DNA of 35,976 nucleotides, from positions 1 to 35,976 of the forward strand of contig JAOADD010000062.1 of the NCBI GenBank assembly GCA_026417495.1. Direction: 5' to 3'. Shown here piece by piece: positions 34,907 through 35,976 of the stretch (its first letter is position 1; each line of letters opens with the position of its first letter). Origin of the DNA: Ignavibacteria bacterium. Its GTDB lineage: Bacteria > Bacteroidota > Ignavibacteria > Tepidaquicellales > Tepidaquicellaceae. The position numbers and the translations under genes are program-made. The notes under the pieces are model-generated. The model did no database searches. It saw only the letters and a list, made by a program, of their open reading frames with translations, and was not told the DNA's origin.

Positions 34907-34921
34907 ACAAGGAACCCTTGT
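34907..34921. other. Small hairpin beside the decayed gene
   Basis: A 6-bp stem ACAAGG/CCTTGT with a 3-base loop is followed on the plus strand by TTTATTTTTT. Both neighbouring genes are on the minus strand, on which no U-run follows, so this is probably not their terminator. It might end an unannotated plus-strand transcript or be chance. Confidence 0.3.
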
Positions 34922-34940
34922 TTTATTTTTTCTTTCCATT

Positions 34941-35420
34941 TCAGGGTTTAGTTTGCCATTGATTATTATCTTCATAACCATATTTCCATTTTCCAGTAAA
35001 TGATTTTCCATCTTTAGAAAATGTAAATATAAACAACCCTGCATTTTGAGGAGGCATATAAGTAGGCTTTTCTGACCATTTTCCTTTTAATACTAATAAA
35101 TTCAGTTCACCTTCAGTTTTACCGCTGTCATAAGTATAATTACCTGTAACTTTGTTTCCGTTTTAATATAAAGTTAGAGTTCCAAAATCTGTTTCATAAA
35201 CACCAAATACATCAATTAATTCTTTATTAGAAATTTTGTTGTTTATTAAAAAACTTTTTACCGTTGAATAAATAGCGTAGCTTTTATTTAAGTGATAGTT
35301 GTCATTATCATTTAAAGATTTCACTAAAATAAAATTATTTCGTAAACTGAAAAAAGTATGATGTATTGGCAATAAATATAATATTCCAAAAAGAATACAA
35401 ATAATTTTAATTTTTTCTAT
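34941..35420 (-). pseudogene. Interrupted gene for a small exported protein with a C-terminal beta-barrel-like domain
   Basis: On the minus strand one frame runs for 160 codons from 35420 to a TGA at 34941-34943, broken by an internal TAA at 35163-35165. The halves join smoothly at protein level: VYETDFGTLTLY, stop, NGNKVTGNYTYDSGKTEGEL, then LKGKWSEKPTY, FIFTFSKDGKSFTGKWKYGY. That is one repeat-rich domain seen widely in bacteria and archaea, in which the stop's place is usually Gln or Lys, one base from TAA. The start also looks lost. The codon where Met is expected (35418-35420) is ATA, followed by EKIKIICILFGILYLLP, a good signal sequence. A TTG at 35372 would cut off that signal. I read it as decayed; a sequencing error at the stop is the alternative. 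Confidence 0.68.
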
Positions 35421-35638: not shown

Positions 35639-35976
35639 TCATTTTATTAAAACCATTTTCTTAGTGTCAATAGAGTTTTCTGTTACTAACCTGTAAAAAT
35701 ACACACCACTTGGATAATTATCTGCATTCCAGGTTTTTTCATAAACTCCAGCACTTAATCGTTCATCAATTAGTGTTTCGATTTCCCTGCCAAGTAAATC
35801 AAAAATCACAAGCCTTACAAATGAACTTCTTGGTAGCATAAAAGTTATTTTAGTAGACGAATTAAACGGGTTTGGAAAATTTTGTTTAAGTATAAAATCT
35901 TTTGGAATTTCTGAAGCAATTTGTTTAACTTCTACCAAATTACCACCACCATTTGTAGTTTTTATTATCATACCAT
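35639..35976 (-). CDS. C-terminal end of a secreted protein with T9SS type A sorting domain (5' part outside window)
   Basis: The frame is open to the right edge, so the gene continues beyond the window; the Met visible near 35971 is probably internal. The first visible residues, GMIIKTTNGGGNL, match the repeat of Ycf48/BNR-like propellers (I-x-KTTNGG), so the missing part is likely a propeller. The last 85 residues are a T9SS type A domain (NFPNPFNSST, then GVYFYRL, ending KKMVLIK). The stop is TGA at 35639-35641. There is an intergenic gap of about 218 bases to the decayed gene. Confidence 0.85.
   Translation of the reverse strand, partial: GMIIKTTNGGGNLVEVKQIASEIPKDFILKQNFPNPFNSSTKITFMLPRSSFVRLVIFDLLGREIETLIDERLSAGVYEKTWNADNYPSGVYFYRLVTENSIDTKKMVLIK

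Follow-up and report, generated by a model that had tools for sequence, protein, structure and literature searches.

A gene on the minus strand of an Ignavibacteria contig is, with a probability of about 90 %, a recently decayed, once functional gene for a small exported protein with an avidin/calycin-like barrel, broken by point lesions in a dispensable domain of patchy distribution. The stretch analysed, hereafter called the window, is the entire contig C54 (35,976 nucleotides) of a MAG with a genome of 2.19 Mb. The coordinates of the gene and its parts are given in Table 1.

Table 1 Features of the broken gene; the stop columns were read from an alignment of 16 intact domain copies
Feature	Position	Strand	Evidence
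Broken gene, coding for a hydrophobic N-terminus of export type, a short linker and a single β-barrel domain, with distal TAA	34923-35420	minus	Single frame; profile match; stop-free upstream codons
Unnamed domain of ~95 residues, predicted 8-stranded barrel	34926-35216	minus	Profile match; model of intact relative; fold matches
In-frame TAA within β-strand 2 of the domain	35163-35165	minus	Gln column in 10/16 intact relatives
Second in-frame stop, TGA, in the last β-strand	34941-34943	minus	Trp column in 14/16 intact relatives; profile alignment passes through
ATA at the expected initiator of the signal sequence	35418-35420	minus	Aligns near start of intact G012 protein
TTG, the one usual start codon available in the stretch without stops; a start here would truncate the hydrophobic segment	35370-35372	minus	
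Probable ancestral terminator TAA, after NGKKK	34923-34925	minus	NGKKK and stop also in G002 and G007
Short palindrome just past the ancestral stop, T-run next on the plus strand	34907-34921	no strand	1 found vs 0.1 expected (shuffles)

Reading frame and lesions

The original prediction described two minus-strand segments in the same frame which form one domain across an in-frame TAA, and an ATA where an initiator would be expected. Both codons were present as described, at 35163-35165 and 35418-35420, and the single domain was confirmed by two matches which span the TAA. Profile A1 (8 rows) gave a single alignment to 34926-35216 of the minus strand, with one TGA and one TAA inside it (E 1.1e-37, a value which is partly circular, as the profile includes the window's own row). 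Independently of this profile, the second domain of the G012 protein matched window residues 69-152, across the TAA, with 56 % identity (E 4.5e-28). With a profile of intact members only, the window domain scored 79.4 bits. Upstream of the domain, the same frame runs for 68 codons without a stop, as was found in only ~0.1 % of simulated AT-rich sequences of the same composition (p ~0.001), and the remaining two frames contain 8 stops each over this stretch, for which no relatives were found. About 45 residues separate the hydrophobic N-terminus from the domain. As judged from the sequence, the segments on either side of the TAA are thus one gene and one domain.

Two one-base lesions, the TAA and the loss of the start codon, had been proposed, with the TGA at 34941-34943 as the natural end of the gene. 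The two lesions were upheld, but the TGA is not the gene end: it stands in a conserved Trp column, and past it the domain runs for five more codons (NGKKK) to the TAA at 34923-34925. The lesions of the window gene are therefore three, two stops inside the frame and the loss of the start; each is of the single-base kind, and no indel was found in this copy. Upstream of the domain, the open frame offers no ATG or GTG in a useful position. The codons TAA, TGA and ATA are all rich in A+T, as expected at a genome G+C of 30 %. Termination at the TAA would leave less than two of the eight strands of the predicted barrel, and termination at the TGA would remove the last (strand 8); normal translation would not yield a protein with the complete predicted barrel.

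The neighbours with Pfam matches in the window are a TPR histidine kinase, PPK2, an MFS transporter and a T9SS cargo. The contig ends 556 bases upstream of the broken gene, and a T9SS cargo fragment (Por_Secre_tail) is located at 35639-35971, close to this end. Promoter-like matches were no more frequent than expected by chance. The palindrome downstream, together with the T-run on the plus strand, is terminator-like.

The barrel domain and its relatives

No family corresponding to the domain was found in Pfam, NCBIfam or PHROGs. The AlphaFold model of an intact relative, made with five sequences, has eight β-strands (pLDDT 87), and the nearest solved folds were the Cap15 barrel (Z 12.2) and avidin and streptavidin (Z ~9.5-10.5). 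The best sequence match in the PDB had E 0.31, and there was no avidin among the matches listed. The domain is thus predicted to resemble avidin, streptavidin and the calycin-like barrels in its 8-stranded antiparallel barrel, without a sequence match to them; the predicted likeness to the Cap15 barrel domain is likewise one of fold, with no sequence similarity. A CD-NTase, as found in the CBASS operon of Cap15, was absent among the Pfam-matched neighbours in the window, the contig ending 556 bases upstream of the gene. From fold and export alone, one might guess at a periplasmic or surface domain which binds a small ligand or a partner.

The domain was found in Ignavibacteria and, in addition, in records of plasmids from a clostridium and from Rhodobacterales; weak relatives from other orders, with E above 1e-4, were left out of the evidence. 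An exported protein of Ignavibacteria bacterium SSF19 (JAIBBK010000044.1, L028 5614-6291) has a signal-like N-terminus and a second domain which is 56 % identical over 84 residues, but it is intact, has two domains instead of one and has other gene neighbours. In G007 (L030 765-3503) and G027 (L006) the domain stands at the C-terminus of large proteins of exported type, of 912 amino acids and with an open frame of 762 amino acids, respectively. On a plasmid of Loktanella salsilacus (L059 2501-4807) it is located close to the N-terminus of a protein with the annotation mechanosensitive ion channel; a Sulfitobacter plasmid record also carries this annotation.

Copies in related genomes

No second copy was found in the window's own genome by DNA or protein search. 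Both sister species of the genus carry broken copies. That in G002, a complete chromosome (CP054675.1), consists of the domain only, without start or signal sequence, and has a TGA at a different position, while in the G001 copy there is a TGA in frame and the frame appears to change twice. The lesions of the sisters differ from those of the window copy and their positions do not match. In contrast, the reading frames are open in the copies from four further genera of the family (G012, G007, G027 and G016), and none of the homologues found ends naturally at the position of the TAA at 35163-35165; every one continues. Broken copies were thus seen in 3/3 genomes within the genus vs 0/4 in the other genera (exact p = 1/35 if the copies are independent), and the suggestion that the loss might be lineage-specific was borne out at the level of the genus.

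The three broken copies occupy different places. The G002 copy is located upstream of a pyrK-like gene, where the window's genome has the end of a TPR-like gene and no relic, and the window gene and its TPR kinase are both absent from the PPK2 locus of G001. Because the pyrK-like and PPK2 loci do not match, the broken copies are not positional orthologues. The window and G002 copies have 80 % DNA identity in their last 121 bases, and the pyrK-like genes of the two genomes are likewise 80 % identical, which suggests that this part of the copies probably diverged about when the species did. The middle of the broken G001 and G002 copies resembles the subtype of G007 and G027, and the C-terminal tail of the G002 copy resembles that of the window copy; recombination between domain subtypes is possible.

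Constraint and age of the probable decay

The differences between the window and G002 copies favour third codon positions, both overall (53/115, p 0.003) and in the last 40 codons (14/25, p 0.016; dN 0.15, dS 0.85). The dN/dS ratio was 0.38 for the whole domain and 0.17 for the last 40 codons, values which mostly reflect older history, as the comparators are distant and themselves broken. The third-position excess and the low dN/dS indicate that the part of the gene downstream of the TAA was translated for much of its history, and that past purifying selection is still visible in its codons.

The score of the window domain on the intact-only profile, 79.4, is inside the leave-one-out range of the intact members (27-94). 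Set against its closest intact relative, the G012 domain, it had a profile score of 69.7 vs 90.2, a drop equal to that caused by ~20 random substitutions. At 11-13 missense changes per nonsense change, calculated for three mutation spectra, the two nonsense changes would imply ~22-26 missense changes, and recent neutral decay explains the drop in score without further assumptions. Since there is no indel, the C-terminal part retains its third-position excess and the score is within the intact range, constraint has been lost only recently, or not wholly.

Alternative explanations

The gene could be intact in the organism, with the stops and the ATA introduced by sequencing or assembly errors or by a mixture of strains in the MAG. 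The origin of the sequence from a MAG, the contig end only 556 bases away and the single-base nature of every difference in an otherwise well-kept protein are in keeping with this, but three errors would have to fall within 500 bases, whereas the 27 listed open frames of the window show no such damage, and two other assemblies, one of them a complete chromosome, also carry broken copies. Error is therefore considered improbable. Even less credence is given to a functional product shorter than the whole protein, either the 69 amino acids from the TTG (35370-35372) to the TAA or a C-terminal piece of 38 amino acids starting with ATG. Both ORFs exist, but neither would hold a fold unit, as the TAA lies in strand 2 of the eight of the predicted barrel and the TGA removes strand 8; the TTG start would moreover drop most of the hydrophobic segment.

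Recoding, in which the stops are read through by suppression or programmed readthrough and the ATA serves as a start, would give the full protein. It agrees with the kept frame, the absence of indels and the purifying selection seen past the TAA, and also with the ATA, which is among the starts listed in NCBI table 11. It would require three unusual events in one gene, and TAA terminates 21/27 window genes and TGA 1/27, this one being the T9SS cargo fragment with a complete sorting domain. Both RF1- and RF2-type release factors are present, as prfB (over the cut-off) and a second release-factor gene were found in 3/3 genomes of the genus, which argues against a changed code. In the sisters the stops are at other sites and accompanied by changes of frame, so that no stop position is conserved. 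Recoding, put forward originally as a remote alternative, is accordingly disfavoured and regarded as very improbable, and it is equally hard to believe that full-length protein is still expressed from a non-AUG start, with a TAA and a TGA both read through. The window and G002 copies each have a TGA at a column where the other has Trp, and a changed code with TGA read as Trp was considered separately; it was rejected, given the presence of RF2 and the T9SS cargo gene ending in TGA, and it leaves the TAA and the loss of the start unexplained.

Interpretation

True decay, as first proposed, is the best reading: the three lesions are independent, the homologues extend past each of the stops, and the copies of the two sisters are broken in other ways. 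The ancestral gene would have coded for a signal segment and one avidin/calycin-like β-barrel domain, its product being exported. In its decay the start codon would have been lost, one stop (TAA) would have appeared near the front of the domain and another (TGA) at the final strand. The domain would be dispensable and patchily distributed; in all three species of the genus that were sampled its copy is broken, each time differently. We infer the present neutrality of the gene, the order of its lesions and the export of its protein.

The gene is similar to other nonsense-type bacterial pseudogenes in its premature stops and loss of the start, in the intact homologues elsewhere and in the independent lesions of sister lineages, and is unusual only in having no indel yet. 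Nothing specific to the window gene or to pseudogenes of Ignavibacteria was found in the literature. As an ordinary recent pseudogene it changes no general view, but it brings to light an exported β-barrel domain that has no family in Pfam and, in a genus whose genomes are small (2.2-2.8 Mb), provides a clean, small case of parallel gene loss.
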